A stretch of DNA of 34,386 nt, taken from NCBI GenBank assembly GCA_012719135.1, contig JAAYAW010000101.1, positions 1-34,386 on the forward strand. Direction: 5' to 3'. Below are positions 21,386-29,637 of the stretch, one piece after another (the first letter of the stretch is position 1; each line of letters opens with the position of its first letter). The notes under the pieces are model-generated. The model did no database searches and had not been told where the DNA came from. It was given only the letters and a program-made list of their open reading frames with translations. The position numbers and the translations under genes are program-made. The stretch is from Chloroflexota bacterium. GTDB taxonomy: Bacteria > Chloroflexota > Anaerolineae > UBA1429.

Positions 21386-23083
21386 CTACAGCCCCCTGGA
21401 CCGGATAATCGATAGCAGCCACCAGGCCCCCAGCACGCCGGCCATCAGAAAGCCGATCTGAGGCACAGGCACGACGATGTCTGAGAGGGGAACCCGGAAC
21501 GCGGCCGCCTCCTCACCCCCAAGCATGATCAGCGCCGATCCCATGATGATCGCTGCCACAACAACGCTGAACGACAGGCGGTTACCGACGGCCTCTGCGC
21601 GGCGCAGCATCTGATCCAGGCGGTGCAGATCTACGCCAATGGACAGATCGCCTCGCGTGATCTGGTCCGTGATCAGGTCTATCCTCTTCGGAAGGATCTG
21701 GAGCGTTTTCCGCAGGTCATCCAGCGTCTTGACCGCATCCAATGCCAGCCGCCGAGGGCTCACTCGCTCCCTGATCAGGCGGATTATAAAGGGTTCCAGA
21801 CGTTTGGCCAACACCACAGAGGGATCCAGGTGCCGGACGACGCCCTCCAGAACCAGCACCGTCCGCGCCAGCAGGGTCAGATCTGCCGGCAGCCGAACCT
21901 GATGCCGGAAGGCAACAGCCATCAACTCCCCCAGGAACTCGCCCACGTGGACGTGCTCCAGAGAGACATCATAGTACCTTTGTATGAGATACTGTAGCTC
22001 GCGGCGCAGTGCTGAGGCATCGGTGCCCGAGGACATGGCGCCCATGTTTGCAAGCGCGGAGACCATTTCCTCGGCATCCTGGCGAACAAGGGAAAAGAGG
22101 AGTTCGCCGATCCGGTCGCGGAGCACTCCAGAGAGACGCCCGACGTTACCCAGATCGACCAGCCCCAAGCGGTCACCGCAGACCATGATGTTTGCGGGAT
22201 GCGGATCGGCATGAAAGGTCCCGTGGACGAACACCTGGCTCAGATAGGCGTCTATTACCCGCTCAGCCACCTCATGCAGATCGTATCCGGCCGCGAGCAA
22301 CCCCTCGCGATCGCTTATCTTGATGCCTTGCAGGTCGCTCATGGTCAGGACGCGCTTGCTGGTGCGGTCCCAGTAGACCGTGGGCAGGAGTACGTCATCG
22401 GGGGGGAGGAGATCGCGCAGGCGATCGGCATTGCGGCCCTCTAGGCGGTAGTCCATCTCGGCATACAGGCTCGCGGAGAACTCGTCCACGATCTCTGCCA
22501 GGTTATACTTTTCCAGCGTACTCGAACGATGCTGGAGAAAGCGGGCCTGTGCCTGGAGGAGATGTAGATCCGCCTGCACCTCGCGATCGATTTCCGGGCG
22601 CTGCACCTTGACTACGACCGGCGTACCATCGGGGAGCGTCGCTCGATGTACCTGACCGATGGAGGCCGATGCGATGGGGTCCACGTCAAAGCGTGCATAC
22701 AAGGAGGAGAGCGACTGCCCCAGCTCGGCCTCGATAGTGGCTACGATCACCGGAGCAGGCACGGCAGGCGCCGCATCCTGAAGGCGGGAGAGCTCGAGGA
22801 CATAGTCGCCGGGGAGTATGTCCGGACGCGTGCTCAGTATCTGGCCGAGCTTGATGTAGGTGGGCCCCAGCTCTTCCAGCGTACGCCGCAACCGGCGTGC
22901 CGCCTGAGGCCCGGCTGCCTCATCGGACCGGCTGACTCGGCGGGCATGCCAGGGTGGCAGGTAGCGCGTCAGCCCGGTGATCTCCACCACAAACCCCAGC
23001 CCGTTGCGGACGAGCACCTGGGCAATATGGCGGGCTCGGGCGATCTCTGCGGCGGTCTGCCGCGGGCTGAGCCATGCGGGCAT
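21386..23083 (-). CDS. AarF/UbiB (ABC1/ADCK) family atypical kinase
   Basis: The 565-residue protein shows all hallmarks of the UbiB/COQ8 family. KLGQ is at 78-81 in the N-terminal extension, and the alanine-rich nucleotide loop is ASASIGQVHRA. The lysine strand is VVVKVQRP, the catalytic loop HGTFHADPHPANIM, and the metal-binding VDLGN replaces DFG. Two C-terminal membrane helices (around 505-525 and 540-560) anchor it. Family members use ATP hydrolysis to support quinone or isoprenoid-lipid synthesis; in organisms using menaquinone the exact role is unknown. The ATG has GAGGGAG seven bases upstream. It starts a probable operon with the GalE-like and MrfA-like genes, an odd functional mix. 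Confidence 0.92.
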   Translation of the reverse strand: MPAWLSPRQTAAEIARARHIAQVLVRNGLGFVVEITGLTRYLPPWHARRVSRSDEAAGPQAARRLRRTLEELGPTYIKLGQILSTRPDILPGDYVLELSRLQDAAPAVPAPVIVATIEAELGQSLSSLYARFDVDPIASASIGQVHRATLPDGTPVVVKVQRPEIDREVQADLHLLQAQARFLQHRSSTLEKYNLAEIVDEFSASLYAEMDYRLEGRNADRLRDLLPPDDVLLPTVYWDRTSKRVLTMSDLQGIKISDREGLLAAGYDLHEVAERVIDAYLSQVFVHGTFHADPHPANIMVCGDRLGLVDLGNVGRLSGVLRDRIGELLFSLVRQDAEEMVSALANMGAMSSGTDASALRRELQYLIQRYYDVSLEHVHVGEFLGELMAVAFRHQVRLPADLTLLARTVLVLEGVVRHLDPSVVLAKRLEPFIIRLIRERVSPRRLALDAVKTLDDLRKTLQILPKRIDLITDQITRGDLSIGVDLHRLDQMLRRAEAVGNRLSFSVVVAAIIMGSALIMLGGEEAAAFRVPLSDIVVPVPQIGFLMAGVLGAWWLLSIIRSRGL

Positions 23084-23110
23084 ATGGGAGCTCCCTCTTG
23101 CTGTGCTGCC

Positions 23111-23119
23111 AGTATATCA
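23111..23119 (-). promoter_or_regulatory. extended -10 promoter of the UbiB-family gene
   Basis: On the minus strand TGATATACT (23119 to 23111) is an extended -10 box. No good -35 box is seen at the right distance. Transcription would start near 23104, about 20 bases before the ATG. Confidence 0.45.
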
Positions 23120-23195
23120 CACCGATCCATGCCATTGTACGTCCGGAGCACGCAGGGTCCCTTTCGCCCTCGGGAGGGGCCGTGGGAGAGCCCTC

Positions 23196-23224
23196 TTGCG
23201 GAGAGGGCCTCGCTCTGCTATTAT
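23196..23224 (+). promoter_or_regulatory. promoter of the M23 peptidase gene
   Basis: TTGCGG (23196-23201) and TATTAT (23219-23224) are 17 bases apart, with TGC before the -10 making it extended. Transcription would start near 23231. The promoter lies inside the long in-frame open stretch upstream of the gene, which argues for the downstream TTG start at 23255. Confidence 0.6.
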
Positions 23225-23254
23225 TGGCAAGTACAGTCTTCTGCTGGAGGCCAG

Positions 23255-24859
23255 TTGAAGGTAATCCTCTGCGCTCTGGCCCTGATCCTGGTACTGGGCG
23301 CTGCGCCGGCGTCTCTTGCCGATGGTACGGATTACAGCGTGCCGGCGCGCTTTGTCCTGCCGTGGAAGTGTGGCGAGAGCTACCGGCTGACCTGGGATCC
23401 CCAGGGACACTGGGCCTCGGGCAAGGCCACAGGAATCGCCTGGGATTTCAGCATGCCCGAGGGAACTCCCCTCCTGGCTCCCTTCTCTGGGAGGGCCGTG
23501 TTCCTGAGCGATACGCGCCCCCTGGAGACCAACTACGGCCACTATGTGGAGATCGTCGACGAGACGGGTCAATGGTTGGTCCGGCTGGCGCACCTGCAGG
23601 AACCGGGCTCCGGCGAGCGCTATGTTCGCACAGGCGATAGCATCGGCGCTTCAGGGGCTTCCGGATTCGTCAGTGCGCATTTGCATCTCGAGTTGCTGGC
23701 GCGCAGCGGCTCAGCTTGGGCCAGGCCGGATCTCGGCGCGCTCGAGCAGGTGTTCGGCATACCCATGCAGGAGATGGTAGAGGGCGCGCTCGTGGGCCCT
23801 GATCGCTGCCTCACGCCGTTGGCCCTGGCCGGCCCGGTTGAGGCTCGTCAATCCCCCTCTCCTTCCGGAGCCGATGTGTGGCTGGACGTACCTCTGTATA
23901 ACCAGACTGCCGAGACTGTGAACCTGAGTCTTGTCCAGCTGTCGCTTTACTCGCTGGAGGGCGACGTTGCGCTGGCGGAAGCGAGCGGAGAGTGGATTGT
24001 GCCGGCGGGATCGGGTTCCGTCATCAGCCTCTCGATCGTGCCTCCGGCTTCTGGCAGCTGGTATGTCGGCCGCGTAACCTGGCAGTCCGATGCTGGCTAC
24101 GGCGGCGCCCCTGCCCGGGGATCCTTTGAGGTCACCTCTCCCGCCGTCGCGTTGATCGCTCTGGCCGGATCTGGGGCCGTTCTTCAGGTGGGCGACCGGC
24201 CGGCGTTTACGGCGTGGGTGGAGAATCGTTCCGACGCGCCGCTGGATGTCGACGAGTTCGTGCTTGAAGGGCTGAGGCCGGACGGGACGCTATGGCAGGC
24301 CCGTTCCAATCACCCCATCGCGGTGCGGGCCGGGGAGATGCTCCCTGTTGACATGCATTCCGATGACGCCGTCAGGCAGGCAGGCTATTGGCAATTGTTG
24401 AGCCTGCACTACCGGCGCGATGGGCACCTGCAGCGGTTTGCCCGCCTGGATGGAGAGATAGCGGTCTACGGTCCGCAGCTTGTGGCATCCTCGTTCACGC
24501 TCTACCGCTCTCCGGAAAGCGCCCATGTGTTGATGCGTATCGAGAATATCGGGACCGACATAGCGGATCCGGACGCTCTTGAGGTCTGGGGGTGGAAGCC
24601 GAACGGGGAGAGTGTCATCGCACGGATTCTCCGTGTTGCCCCGATAGAGGCTGGCCAGGGCGCCCTGGTCCGCCTGGCCGTCCCGTTGGAAGCCGTCGAG
24701 GGCACCTGGCGCTTTGTGGAGGCCGGTTATTGGCTTCGGGGCGAGTACGTATCCATCCCTCTGCCCGGGCAGCCGGCTCTGGCTACCTCCGCCACGGGGC
24801 CTGATGATGCGGAACCGGCGCCGGTTCAGGCACAGCCGGTCCTCAGCCCGCTCCGCTAG
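23255..24859 (+). CDS. secreted M23-family metallopeptidase with C-terminal beta-rich domains
   Basis: Read from TTG 23255, the 534-residue product begins with a clean signal peptide (KVILCALALILVLGAAPASLA) cleaved after ASLA. GGAGG is four bases upstream and the promoter lies just before it. The M23 (LytM-like) domain spans about 40-150. H52 and D64 (GHW...WDF), H113 (LAHL) and the HLHLE motif (H142, H144) are the probable zinc and catalytic residues. The spacing from H52 to D64 is wider than the classical HxGxD. The remaining 340 residues are beta-rich with repeated features such as WVENRSDAP and MRIENIG, suggesting CARDB-like or Ig-like domains. A peptidoglycan endopeptidase or a protease outside the cell is likely. 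Its stop overlaps that of the convergent gene. Confidence 0.75.
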   Translation: MKVILCALALILVLGAAPASLADGTDYSVPARFVLPWKCGESYRLTWDPQGHWASGKATGIAWDFSMPEGTPLLAPFSGRAVFLSDTRPLETNYGHYVEIVDETGQWLVRLAHLQEPGSGERYVRTGDSIGASGASGFVSAHLHLELLARSGSAWARPDLGALEQVFGIPMQEMVEGALVGPDRCLTPLALAGPVEARQSPSPSGADVWLDVPLYNQTAETVNLSLVQLSLYSLEGDVALAEASGEWIVPAGSGSVISLSIVPPASGSWYVGRVTWQSDAGYGGAPARGSFEVTSPAVALIALAGSGAVLQVGDRPAFTAWVENRSDAPLDVDEFVLEGLRPDGTLWQARSNHPIAVRAGEMLPVDMHSDDAVRQAGYWQLLSLHYRRDGHLQRFARLDGEIAVYGPQLVASSFTLYRSPESAHVLMRIENIGTDIADPDALEVWGWKPNGESVIARILRVAPIEAGQGALVRLAVPLEAVEGTWRFVEAGYWLRGEYVSIPLPGQPALATSATGPDDAEPAPVQAQPVLSPLR

Positions 24860-25467
24860 AGGGTCTCGGGCTTGCCCGCGCGTTCGCGGATCAGTGCGAG
24901 GAGCCAGTCGAGGTCGCTGATCGTTCCCGGCTCGAGACGAAAGAGTTGCCGCTCTCCCTCCCGGTCCAAGGCCACCAGGTCATAGGCGTACGGCGGCATG
25001 TTCCTCAGGAGGCGGCCCCGCGTGAGCCATCGACTCAGCCTGGCGCCCTGCCCCAGCCGCGTATCTCGAAAAGGCAGGATTTGCTTCTGATAGGCCGTTA
25101 CGTCGGCCCAGAGTATCCGCTCAGGTCCCCAGTGCGACAGCCGCTCGATGTACGCGTCTGTGACACGGATCTGTTCCCCGCGCAGCATGTACCAGAAATG
25201 GATGCCCATGGCGGTCGGCAGGAAAAAGATGATCCCATAGAGCCAGAACCAGCGTGATCCAAACAAGAGGTCAAAGCGAAAGCGAAGACCGGTGCGCAGG
25301 CTGGCGATCAGGGTGGCCACAGTAAACAAGACCACCGATAGCAGGATCAACACGCGGAGATAGTGTCCGCCTTGCCCTTCGAAGGTCTCCAGTTCCGGCA
25401 CGGGCCCACCGCACGAAGGGCAGTCCGTGCCGCCCGGCGCCGAGATGTAGCAGGTTGGGCAGAGCAT
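24856..25467 (-). CDS. zinc-ribbon membrane protein with PH-like domain
   Basis: The 203-residue protein starts with a CxxC zinc ribbon (C3, C6, C16, C19). Two membrane helices follow, at about 37-57 and 72-92. The last 105 residues resemble a bacterial PH-like domain (RGEQIRVTDAYIERLS, WADVTAYQ, and a C-terminal helix with DLDWLLALI). Such domains usually assemble membrane-associated complexes. ATG 25467 is chosen because AGGAG lies five bases upstream; this site overlaps the stop of the preceding gene, so the two are coupled. The stop shares the CTAG tetranucleotide with the convergent M23 gene. No function is known. The combination of ribbon and membrane helices recalls the unrelated gene at 4701. 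Confidence 0.65.
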   Translation of the reverse strand: MLCPTCYISAPGGTDCPSCGGPVPELETFEGQGGHYLRVLILLSVVLFTVATLIASLRTGLRFRFDLLFGSRWFWLYGIIFFLPTAMGIHFWYMLRGEQIRVTDAYIERLSHWGPERILWADVTAYQKQILPFRDTRLGQGARLSRWLTRGRLLRNMPPYAYDLVALDREGERQLFRLEPGTISDLDWLLALIRERAGKPETL

Positions 25468-25475
25468 CACAACTC

Positions 25476-26027
25476 CTACCGGAGGTCCTGGCCACGTGGC
25501 AGGATGACGCCCCCGCTGCCGGCGCCACGTCGCTCTTCACCGTCTGCGTTCGGCTCCCGGTCCTCGTCATGAAGAGCCTTTGCCAGGGTCTCTATCTCCT
25601 CCAAGGATAGGCCGTATCCCGGGGTTCCGTCGATCAACAGCTCGCACAACCTGCGCCTAAAGTCGGCCGCAAAGGTCTGAGCGGATTCATACGGGTGCCA
25701 GTTGGCCCTCGCCTGACGCACAAAGCCGCTCAACGCTGGGCTTGGGGTGGCGAGAGCATTTCGATACGCCAGAGTGGGAACGCCCTTGTCCTGCGCGGCA
25801 CGCCACTCTACACCGATGGGTGCGGTGATGTCACTGCCGATCAGGATCACGTAAAAGTCCGCCCTGTCCAGAGCGGCCCAATCCGCATCGATCTTTAGGT
25901 GCGGTGGCGGGGTGCGCTTGATGGCCCAGCGCACCGTTTGTGTGAGTTGTGCCAGCAATTGTCCGAGCAGCTCGCACTCGGCGTCCATCTCGGCGCTGGC
26001 GCTCACGTACAGGTTCAGTTCGCGCAC
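25476..26027 (-). CDS. uncharacterised alpha/beta protein, DUF4062/TIR-like (tentative)
   Basis: I do not firmly recognise this 183-residue protein. It opens with a strand, LNLYVSAS, followed by an acidic helix (EMDAECELL), then LDRADFYVILIGSDI and VEWRAAQDKGVP. This strand-helix pattern recalls the DUF4062 or TIR-like flavodoxin folds used in signalling or nucleotide sensing. A catalytic Glu of NAD-cleaving TIR domains cannot be assigned with confidence. The last 50 residues are charged and low in complexity. The GTG at 26027 is preferred because GGAGGAG (26032-26038) sits just upstream, while the GTG/ATG eight codons earlier has no such site. It is the first gene of a two-gene operon under a perfect promoter. 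Confidence 0.6.
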   Translation of the reverse strand: MRELNLYVSASAEMDAECELLGQLLAQLTQTVRWAIKRTPPPHLKIDADWAALDRADFYVILIGSDITAPIGVEWRAAQDKGVPTLAYRNALATPSPALSGFVRQARANWHPYESAQTFAADFRRRLCELLIDGTPGYGLSLEEIETLAKALHDEDREPNADGEERRGAGSGGVILPRGQDLR

Positions 26028-26080
26028 AACGCTCCTCCAGAAACTCATCACACGGACAGGAAGGCAGAGACCCCGAATGG

Positions 26081-26233: not shown

Positions 26234-26254
26234 GGTGGCCTTTCATTGGCCGCC
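26234..26254 (+). other. short leader hairpin
   Basis: GGTGGCC (26234-26240) pairs with GGCCGCC (26248-26254), with one G-T wobble, around a seven-base loop. It ends about 20 bases before the start codon at 26276 and could affect translation. It could also be chance in GC-rich DNA. Confidence 0.3.
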
Positions 26255-26275: not shown

Positions 26276-27331
26276 ATGTCCAAAGTCCTGGTAGTCAGCC
26301 ACGATTCTGAGCTCTTTTCTCTCTCCCGAGGGATCTCCACACCGACTGGATATGAGGTCTGCTATGCTGCGACGGGCACCGAAGGTCTGTCTCAGCTGGC
26401 GAACGAGGCGCCCGATCTGATCGTCTCTGACTTGAGCCTGGGCGATATGGATGGCCTCTCCTTTCTGCGGCGTGTCAAAGTTCTGACGGGAGCAGCGGTT
26501 CCCTTTGTGTTCGCCTCTGCGCATGCCAGCTCCTCTGATCGATTGGAGGGTCTGCGCGCAGGCGCGGACGACTGGATCTCACTTCCGATGACGCCAGAGG
26601 AACTCGATGCCCGCATCGCTGCGATCCTCCGCAGGCTGGCGCGTACACGGGCGGACGAGAGGGTGCGCTTTGATGCGCTCAAGGCCAGCACCTTGCAAGA
26701 ACTGTCGGGACGGTTGCGGGAGCCTGTCGATAGCCTGCTTGCGGATCTCAGGCTCTTTTCGGAGGAGCGAATCAACGAATCCCCGGAGGTTCAGCGTCAG
26801 AGCATCAGGCATGCGATAGAGAGCGCCTGTCGGCTCGGCCATCTGGTGGACGAAATGGGCTGGGTCAACGCGGAACGATCGAACACGACGCTGAGTTGGG
26901 AGCCCGTGCGGATTGCTCCCATCGTCCGCCGCTCGGCGGCGACGGCAAGCCGGCGCGCTGTGGACAAGAACGTACAGATCAGCCTCTCCTGCGGAGGGCT
27001 CTTGAGCGGCAACGTCGATGAGGCCGCCATGGTGCGGACGCTCGGGAACCTGCTCGAGGCCGTGGTAGATCTATCGCCGGAGGGTAGCGAGGTATCGCTC
27101 CAGGCACGTCGTGTGCAGGACATGGGGCTGGAGTTCATCGTGGCTGAAGGGCGCCGCGAGATCAGCGGAGCTACCAATGGGCGCTCCCTACGCGATGCAC
27201 TGGAACTCGCCCGAAGCGTCGTTCGCGGGCATAACGGCAAGATGTCGGTGCGCAGTACCGAGGATGGGCGCCAGAGCTATGTGCTCTGGGTTCCCGGCCG
27301 AGCTCCGCGGTCCCGGCATGCCAGGGCCTGA
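26276..27331 (+). CDS. degenerate receiver plus histidine-kinase-like protein (pseudo-two-component)
   Basis: The 351-residue protein has a receiver domain (about 1-122) followed by regions that align with HisKA and HATPase. In the receiver, the phosphoacceptor D52 (SDLSLGDMDG) is kept. The acidic pair after the first strand is replaced by S8-H9 (VVSHD), and the conserved Lys of the KP motif is L103 (SLPM). In the HisKA-like helix, LSGRLREP aligns with the usual SHELRTP, so the phosphohistidine is a Gly (G145). In the ATPase, NLLEAVVDLSPEGSEV aligns with the N-box but has Ala262 for the Mg-binding Asn, and no DxGxG or GLGL box is visible. The fold ending (HNGKMSVRS, YVLWVP) remains. ATG 26276 follows GAGGCGAGT. 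A regulatory or scaffold role without phosphotransfer is inferred. Confidence 0.75.
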   Translation: MSKVLVVSHDSELFSLSRGISTPTGYEVCYAATGTEGLSQLANEAPDLIVSDLSLGDMDGLSFLRRVKVLTGAAVPFVFASAHASSSDRLEGLRAGADDWISLPMTPEELDARIAAILRRLARTRADERVRFDALKASTLQELSGRLREPVDSLLADLRLFSEERINESPEVQRQSIRHAIESACRLGHLVDEMGWVNAERSNTTLSWEPVRIAPIVRRSAATASRRAVDKNVQISLSCGGLLSGNVDEAAMVRTLGNLLEAVVDLSPEGSEVSLQARRVQDMGLEFIVAEGRREISGATNGRSLRDALELARSVVRGHNGKMSVRSTEDGRQSYVLWVPGRAPRSRHARA

Positions 27332-27363
27332 GTGAACCGCGGGAGCCTTCTGACGATCTGCCC

Positions 27364-28125
27364 CTAGTGCAGGATCTTGCCCAGGAACTCTTTGGTGCGT
27401 TCATGCTTAGGCGCCCGGAACAGCTCCTCGGGCGTCGTGTCCTCGATGACCTTGCCGTCATCCATGAAGATGACACGGTCCGCCGCATTGCGCGCAAAGC
27501 CCATCTCATGCGACACGACGACCATGGTCATGCCATCCTGAGCCAGCTGAAGCATCACATCCAGGACCTCTTTGATCATCTCGGGATCCAGAGCCGAAGT
27601 GGGCTCATCGAACAACATGATCTTGGGCTGCATCGCCAGAGCCCGGGCGATAGCGACGCGCTGTTGTTGCCCACCTGAAAGCTGAATAGGATAGGCGCCG
27701 GCCTTGTCGGGGATGCCCACCTTGTTTAGCAGCTCCTCCGCGACCTCCTGAGCCTCCTGCCGGTTCCTCTTGCGCACGATCCGCTGCGCCATCATGATGT
27801 TCTCCAGCACGCTCAGGTGAGGGAACAGGTTGAACTGCTGGAAGACCATGCCGATCTCGGTGCGTACCTCGTTGAGACGGCTGGCATGGGCGAGCGCGAT
27901 GCCATCTATGATGACTTCGCCCGAATCCGGGATCTCCAGGTAGTTCAGGCAGCGTAGCATCGTGGACTTGCCCGAGCCGCTGGGGCCGATCACCACTGCG
28001 ACCTGCCCCTGAGGCACGTCCAACGAGACATCATCCAACGCAACCAACTTGCCGTGGTAGTAGGACTTGCGCAAGTGGCGTATCTGAATGATGGGCACAT
28101 CCGTTTCTTCGATCGATCTCTCCAT
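27364..28125 (-). CDS. polar amino-acid ABC transporter ATP-binding protein (GlnQ/HisP type)
   Basis: This 253-residue ATPase powers uptake of a polar amino acid together with the adjacent permease. It has Walker [10 protein letters not shown]-loop QQFNLFPHL, signature LSGGQQQR, Walker [13 protein letters not shown] and the switch [19 protein letters not shown] is typical of the glutamine/histidine/arginine transporter subfamily. ATG 28125 is preferred because GGGAG is eight bases upstream; a TTG at 28143 overlapping the permease stop is also in frame. The genes are tightly packed, permease first. No periplasmic binding protein for this system is in the window. The specific amino acid cannot be read. 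Confidence 0.92.
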
Positions 28126-28139
28126 GAACGTACTCCCGA

Positions 28140-29561
28140 TCAACGCTCAAAGCGTGTCTTTGATTCCAGGAACTCGACGATGCGCGAACTGACCAGGGTG
28201 AGCACCAGGTAGCAGAGGGCCACCATGATCCAGGTGTCAAAGCTGAGAAAGGTTCGGGCCATGTACTCCCGTCCGCGCCTCGTGAGATCGGAGACGGCCA
28301 ACACAGATACCAGCGAAGAGTCCTTGATCAGAGCCACGAACTCGTTGCCGATGGGTGGCAGGATCACGCGCACCGCCTGAGGCAGCACGATATGGCGCAT
28401 AGCTTGGAAGCTGCTCATGCCCAAAGAACGCGCGGCCTCCATCTGTCCGCGATGTATCGACGAGATGCCCGCGCGGAATATCTCTGCGCCGTAAGCACCG
28501 TAGCAGACTGTCAGGCCCATGACGGCCGCCGTGTACTCATTGAGCCTCAACTGGCCGAACCAGGCAGATATGGCCGGGTATTGCTGCGTCGCTTCCCCCA
28601 CTGCGCGGAACATGTTGGGCAGGGCGAACCAGATAAACAGGAGCTGAACGAGCAGGGGGATTCCACGGATCAGCTCCACATAAAGGGTGGAAATTCCGTA
28701 GATGATCCGGTTGTGCGATATGCGACCGAGGCCCCCTAGCAGGCTCACCAGGAGGATAAAGCCGTAGGAAGTAATGACGATGCGGAGCGTCACCAGGATG
28801 CCGTCGCCGATGAATCTCCAGATCTCGAGATACGGGTAAGGACGAACCCGTATCAGCAGCCAGATCGTCAGGGCGACCACGAAAGCGAGCGACCACCAGT
28901 TCAGGAGATCACGCCGCGTCTCGTGGCGGAGGGACCAGATCCCTGCAGTCATGAGTGCCGCGCCGATGACGGCGGTCCACAGACCGATTCCCGGGTTGAG
29001 CGCACCGTTGCTCTGCGCGTAGAGGTATGTTGAAAAGTCGACTTGGTGACACCAGGCAAAACCCAGAGAGAGCATCGACAGCGCGCTTATGATCAGGCTG
29101 GCTGGAATCAGCTTCTCCGCTACGCCAGCCTCCCGAACGTAGCTTCGCACAACCAGCAGCGCGCCCAGCGCTGCACCAACGAGCGGAATCGCCATCGTCA
29201 CGATAAAGCTGACCAGCGCCCCTCGATCCGGTGCTCCCAGAGAGCGAAACAGCCATCCCCATCCTGTGCTGGCCACGCCGTTGACCTTCTCCAGGCTAAC
29301 CTCGACCGACTCTAGTTGGCCATTCCCGAGCGTCTTGGCGTGCGTGGCGTGCTGGCCGTGAATCAGTACCGGGAACTCCAGCGTGACAGCCGGATCCTCA
29401 ATAAAAGTGGTGTGTGCCGAGGCGATCCGTGTCTGGAAGAACGGCAGAAAGTAAGCCAGGAAGAGCACCAGAGCCCCGATCAAGGTCAACATAAAGCGCC
29501 AGTTGCGCCGTTCGCTGTGGCTCAATCGATGGTCACGGAACCGGGAACGATCTAGTAGCAC
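28140..29561 (-). CDS. polar amino-acid ABC permease with a long multi-pass N-terminal extension
   Basis: The C-terminal 240 residues are a complete HisM/GlnP-type permease. They begin near [11 protein letters not shown], contain [16 protein letters not shown], and have the EAA loop [20 protein letters not shown] that docks on the ATPase. Before it lie about 230 further residues. They carry one membrane helix (about 24-42 from this start), a 70-residue extracytoplasmic loop, and four more helices. Typical members lack most of this. The GTG at 29561 follows GGGGGG at four bases; a TTG at 29594 is in frame but falls inside a hairpin and has no ribosome site, so the start is uncertain. It follows livF after a structured gap and is coupled to the downstream ATPase gene. 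Confidence 0.82.
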
Positions 29562-29592
29562 AATACCCCCCGTGTGCTGAACTGCTACATAC

Positions 29593-29637
29593 AACGAGGC
29601 CGCTCAGGGCCCAGTGGGCACCTGACCAAGCCTCGTT
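29593..29637 (-). terminator. branched hairpin between livF and the polar amino-acid permease
   Basis: Outer arms 29593-29600 and 29630-29637 pair over 8 bp. Inner arms 29604-29608/29621-29625 (5 bp) and 29609-29612/29616-29619 (4 bp) extend it. Neither side carries a real T-tract. It may be a partial terminator or a processing hairpin setting the level of the downstream transporter genes. Confidence 0.5.

Follow-up and report, generated by a model that had tools for sequence, protein, structure and literature searches.

Results

The locus and its receiver domain

The window, which is the whole stretch of 34,386 nucleotides analysed from a Chloroflexota bacterium, contains a gene that encodes a receiver domain fused to a histidine-kinase-like half. 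Its reading frame opens with the ATG at 26276 and runs unbroken to the stop codon at 27331, intact as the original prediction had stated, and an alternative in-frame start is the TTG at 26246. In the list below, orthologues are called kinase-coupled when a histidine kinase gene lies directly downstream and orphan when it is missing; G numbers denote genomes.

26276..27331, plus strand: receiver-pseudokinase gene, 351 amino acids, open frame, seven orthologues
26285..26617, plus strand: receiver domain, residues 4-114 (PF00072, E 9.7e-18)
26297..26302, plus strand: S8-H9 replacing the acidic pair (Asp-Asp in the readable kinase-coupled orthologues, Asp-Glu in the orphans G004 and G014)
26429..26431, plus strand: D52, the phospho-acceptor Asp position, kept in the window (Asp in the coupled orthologues, Gly in G004 and G014)
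26582..26584, plus strand: L103 replacing the conserved receiver Lys (Lys in 5/5 coupled orthologues, His in G004 and G014)
26654..26878, plus strand: DHp-like helical hairpin, residues ~127-201 (AlphaFold2 helices, weak HisKA match at 141-194, PDB profile matches)
26708..26710, plus strand: G145 at the phospho-His position (G/S/R/A in 8/8 members, His in nearly all aligned non-family kinases)
26900..27295, plus strand: CA-like (HATPase fold) domain, residues ~209-340 (AlphaFold2, mostly pLDDT ~90; profile matches)
27059..27061, plus strand: A262 at the N-box Asn (A/S/T in 8/8 members)
27149..27181, plus strand: short loop replacing the rest of the G1 box, the F box, the ATP lid and the G2 box (deletion relative to intact kinase cores)

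A Pfam search of the window protein alone found a clear receiver (64.8 bits, above the gathering cut-off of 30.2) and matches below gathering to HisKA (E 0.0071) and HATPase_c (E 0.013). The receiver does not carry the full catalytic set of acidic pair, Asp, Thr/Ser and Lys: the corresponding residues are S8, H9, D52, S81 (at the conserved Thr position) and L103. The loss of the acidic pair and Lys and the retention of D52 had been predicted with the correct residues and numbering. With the acidic pair and Lys missing, the window receiver is most likely of the pseudo-receiver type (as defined in PMC12632262), and it is predicted to act independently of phosphorylation. Because D52 is still present, the window protein could nevertheless be phosphorylated to a residual extent.

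The kinase-like half has lost the catalytic residues

To evaluate the weak kinase matches, a family profile was built from the C-terminal halves of the eight members and compared with the PDB. The best match was DivL (4q20, E 4e-13), and other sensor histidine kinases followed at ~2e-12 to 4e-12. When the family C-terminal half was aligned by hhalign with 17 intact kinase cores, the probability was 99.8% (E 2.6e-30). Since both comparisons match kinase cores, the weak Pfam matches reflect true homology. The AlphaFold2 model of residues 126-351 (mean pLDDT 84.5) has a two-helix DHp-like hairpin followed by an alpha/beta CA-like sandwich; the model was built with 25 kinase cores as the alignment and is not independent of the homology claim, because its input included kinases. 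Modelling the full-length protein from its sequence alone gave a poor result (mean pLDDT 41.9), and that model was left unused. The model and hhalign support the predicted preservation of the DHp-CA fold.

The histidine kinase catalytic set (phospho-His, N-box Asn, G boxes and ATP lid) is missing in all eight family members. Across the eight, the phospho-His position is G, S, S, S, R, A, G and A, and the N-box Asn position is A, A, A, A, S, A, T and S, while nearly all the non-family kinase matches aligned keep both His and Asn. No GLGL motif was present in any of the eight members in the alignment. Thus, the predicted Gly at the phospho-His position, Ala262 at the N-box Asn and absence of the DxGxG and GLGL boxes were all borne out, the glycine boxes and the ATP lid being deleted relative to intact kinase cores. 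Two other statements did not hold. The core alignments had been described as free of gaps, but the HATPase alignment is gapped where the ATP lid is deleted. The receiver-first order had been taken as reversed, but intact REC-HisKA-HATPase proteins exist (L009, L012, L013, L016, L030 and L159). An unusual domain order was rejected; the order is that of a response regulator whose output domain resembles a kinase. Judged from these residues, the orphan protein should have no autophosphorylation, no normal ATP binding and no HisKA phosphatase action.

Two sets of residues in the pseudokinase half, C239-G240-G241 (Cys-Gly-Gly) and, near the C-terminus, W338 with P340-G341-R342, are invariant in the family and missing from the ordinary kinases aligned. 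Each may represent a binding site.

Distribution of the family

The orthologue search covered 60 related genomes, then the whole family, the whole order, a sample of the class and a sample of the phylum. Eight members were found in total, all within the window's own GTDB family, with the scan prefilter limiting the candidates scored per genome, so that remote members may exist elsewhere. Of the seven orthologues of the window protein, six are of full length (39-47% identity) and the seventh is truncated: the G007 copy begins at a contig end inside the receiver, and half of its receiver is unread. Members scored E < 1e-89 in the class sample, ahead of the next matches at E 1.7e-23; of the latter, those examined proved to be ordinary kinases, and almost all retain His and Asn. 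The pseudokinase gene was not found in the same-genus genome G001 or in G010, which is 99% complete. Completeness is 99% for the window genome, 95% for G004, 77% for G014 and 83% for G003, and several genomes are incomplete drafts. No orthologue with an intact kinase His or Asn was recovered, both residues being lost in 8/8 members.

The receivers fall into two groups. The acidic pair, Asp, Thr and Lys are all intact in G003, G009, G012 and G013, and the Lys is intact in G007. A degenerate receiver occurs only in the clade of the window, G004 and G014 (three genomes, two genera), which has no partner kinase. Within this clade the window protein lacks the acidic pair and Lys, and in G004 and G014 the Asp is replaced by Gly and the Lys by His.

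Synteny of the missing partner kinase

A membrane histidine kinase gene (~520-725 amino acids) lies directly downstream on the same strand in G003, G007, G009, G012 and G013. The partner kinase in G013 (P0003) contains GAF, PAS, HisKA and HATPase_c domains, and the G009 copy has no GAF part. A profile of the N-terminal membrane domain of the kinase matched at E < 1e-92 in the five coupled genomes, and nothing better than E 0.03 was found in the other 10 of the 15 family genomes, including G000, G004 and G014. The absence is credible in the window genome and G004 because these are 99% and 95% complete; G014 is 77% complete. The features next to the gene in the window are as follows.

27332..27363, no strand: 32-bp junction where G009 has the partner kinase gene (synteny)
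27364..28143, minus strand: GlnQ-like ABC ATPase, synteny anchor (77% identity to G009, 82% to G004; best NCBIfam match GlnQ, below cut-off)
28140..29594, minus strand: amino-acid ABC permease, synteny anchor (60% identity to G009 and G004, 65% to G014)
25476..26051, minus strand: 191-amino-acid protein, divergent neighbour in the three orphan genomes (47-50% identity in G004 and G014; 47-53% with G006 included)

The gene order is pseudokinase, kinase, ABC ATPase in G009 and pseudokinase, ABC ATPase in the window, and in both genomes the ABC ATPase and permease genes are convergent to the pseudokinase gene. G004 has the arrangement of the window, without the kinase, and G014 has the permease near the pseudokinase gene on a short contig. 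The simplest reading is that the kinase gene was lost by deletion at the junction in the window lineage.

Several observations concern the other neighbours. In the 484-amino-acid ABC permease, only the last 220 residues are GlnP-like, the long stretch ahead of them at the N-terminus being conserved across the family. The 191-amino-acid protein had no Pfam or NCBIfam match; its start (LNLYVSASAEMDAECELLG) resembles DUF4062/TIR-like N-termini by eye only. It was considered as a dedicated partner and dropped, since G006 has it without the pseudokinase. At 24856-25470 on the minus strand lies a 204-amino-acid probable membrane protein with a zinc-ribbon-like start (CPTC...CPSC), 48-56% identical in G006 and G004, which matched no family above cut-off. 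The M23 peptidase ORF at 22646-24859 (plus strand) overlaps the antisense ABC1/UbiB-like kinase ORF at 21386-23083, and its true start is probably further downstream.

Evolutionary rates and selection

In the maximum likelihood tree, the window protein and those of G014 and G004 form one clade (support 100/99). The best tree nests this orphan clade among the kinase-coupled proteins with moderate support (72/88 and 69/82), and because the support is only moderate, gain of the kinase gene in the coupled relatives is conceivable. On a fixed topology, the orphan branches had 1.64 times the length of the coupled ones in the receiver and 0.48 times in the output half. The receiver/output branch ratio was thus up 3.4-fold in the orphan clade (bootstrap median; 95% interval 2.1-5.4; 0 of 150 replicates at or below 1).

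Between G014 and G004, dN/dS was 0.077 for the receiver, 0.105 for the linker and DHp and 0.062 for the CA domain, as estimated for this one orphan pair by a simple counting method at dS of 0.6-0.85. Since the receiver is accelerated but has a low dN/dS, it is under changed constraint and not neutral. The view that the gene is not decayed agrees with its eight family members and with the low ratios between the two orphan orthologues.

Discussion

Because all eight members lack the kinase His and Asn, the output half was most likely dead already in the common ancestor. As judged from the aligned residues, the two halves most likely decayed separately, the kinase half ancestrally and the receiver only in the kinase-less lineage. 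A single event of double degeneration is not supported, since the kinase-coupled orthologues have canonical receivers. The proposal of a phosphorylation-independent scaffold or sensor stands insofar as the protein is conserved and has a signalling role without catalysis; phosphorylation independence does not extend to the whole family, in which the coupled receivers are canonical.

We consider it probable that the window protein is a response regulator with a pseudo-histidine-kinase output which, once orphaned, became a pseudo-receiver protein acting by protein binding. In the ancestral state, the downstream membrane kinase would have phosphorylated the receiver, and the receiver would have governed binding by the dimeric pseudo-kinase core. 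In the window lineage, the partner kinase gene, now absent from its syntenic position, appears to have been lost, most simply by deletion. The receiver, which has lost its residues for phosphorylation and has diverged, would have shed that chemistry after the kinase loss, and receiver and output would have stayed under the purifying selection seen between the two orphan orthologues. The present orphan protein would then most likely be a phosphorylation-independent binding module in which the DHp-like helices dimerise, the pseudo-receiver serves as a regulatory cap, either fixed or gated by a ligand or protein, and a surface binds another signalling protein such as a kinase or a receiver. Because selection persists though the chemistry of both halves is lost, the protein is probably a binding module rather than an enzyme.

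Other explanations share part of this evidence. The pseudokinase core could serve a histidine kinase as allosteric cofactor, by pairing with it or modulating it as RetS does with GacS; that kinase would once have been the one encoded next door and would now be another in the cell. In five genomes a kinase gene lies alongside and is probably co-transcribed, and the model predicts that the dimerisation hairpin is kept; both are consistent with such a role, which we regard as possible, if unlikely. In the orphan clade, however, the pseudokinase gene persists under purifying selection where the adjacent kinase is gone, so that this kinase is not the sole target there, and a role solely as its cofactor is unlikely. 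A phosphotransferase like Spo0B or ChpT, in which a kinase-fold dimer relays phosphate without ATP, would share the kinase fold and degenerate CA domain of the family. These phosphotransferases retain the phospho-accepting His, which is missing in 8/8 members; with G/S/R/A at the conserved phospho-His position of the DHp helix, this role was rejected as scarcely credible.

It is also conceivable, though we think it doubtful, that the protein is a DivL-like detector: a phosphorylated receiver, either its own or a different one, would dock on the pseudo-DHp surface, and the state of that receiver would be relayed. Among PDB entries the family profile matches DivL best, and DivL binds DivK~P though it has no kinase or phosphatase activity (PMC4211667). 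The window protein, on the other hand, lacks a PAS sensor region, the profile match to DivL takes in a CA region nearer to that of working kinases, and the orphan clade's own receiver is unable to give a normal phospho-signal. Mere decay of the orphan-clade gene after loss of its partner would explain why the receiver lost conserved residues and accelerated. The frame is intact in three genomes of two genera, however, dN/dS is 0.06-0.11 in all parts between G014 and G004, and the window protein keeps the family-invariant residues of the kinase-like half; on these grounds decay was rejected as very improbable.

We return to the reading of an orphaned response regulator that acts by protein binding and compare it with known systems. 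DivL of Caulobacter (PDB 4q20; PMC4211667) likewise has a kinase-fold DHp-CA core without the phospho-His; it shows no autokinase or phosphatase activity and sets a precedent for binding by a kinase core. Unlike the window protein, DivL carries PAS domains at its N-terminus and has no fused receiver, binding DivK as a separate protein; the window protein has its receiver fused ahead of a core that has lost the N-box Asn and the ATP lid. ExsG, a REC-HWE histidine kinase, has the same arrangement, with a receiver at the N-terminus joined to a kinase core at the C-terminus, and phosphorylation of its receiver regulates that core (PMC3899027). ExsG, however, is an active HWE-class kinase, whereas the window core resembles HisKA and has none of the catalytic boxes examined. 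Compared with the class of pseudo-histidine kinases, the window protein has the kinase fold with the catalytic residues missing, and partner binding is predicted.

About 0.9% of HisKA domains lack the phospho-His, and the characterised atypical response regulators are greatly enriched for orphans, most having no kinase partner; how pseudo-receivers switch on and off was termed a mystery in the same 2025 review (PMC12632262). No published description of a family combining a receiver with a pseudo-histidine kinase was found in a small search of the open-access literature that covered some of the response-regulator output types. The window receiver resembles the atypical response regulators in being orphaned and without the conserved active-site residues, and differs from them in that the output is a pseudo-histidine kinase and that receiver-intact, kinase-coupled orthologues occur in sister genera. 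The combination of pseudo-receiver and pseudo-histidine kinase with such orthologues fits as a variant within known categories. We lean towards the view that a dead histidine-kinase core is a distinct type of response-regulator output, and that the change of a phospho-receiver into a pseudo-receiver is traceable to the disappearance of a single neighbouring kinase gene, with the effector still selected; because the orphan state is a single clade, the association of receiver decay with loss of the kinase depends on one event. Matched orthologues, intact and coupled or dead and orphaned, carry the same output, and the transition between the two states is therefore directly comparable. The comparison suggests that a kinase core may act as a response-regulator output without any catalysis.
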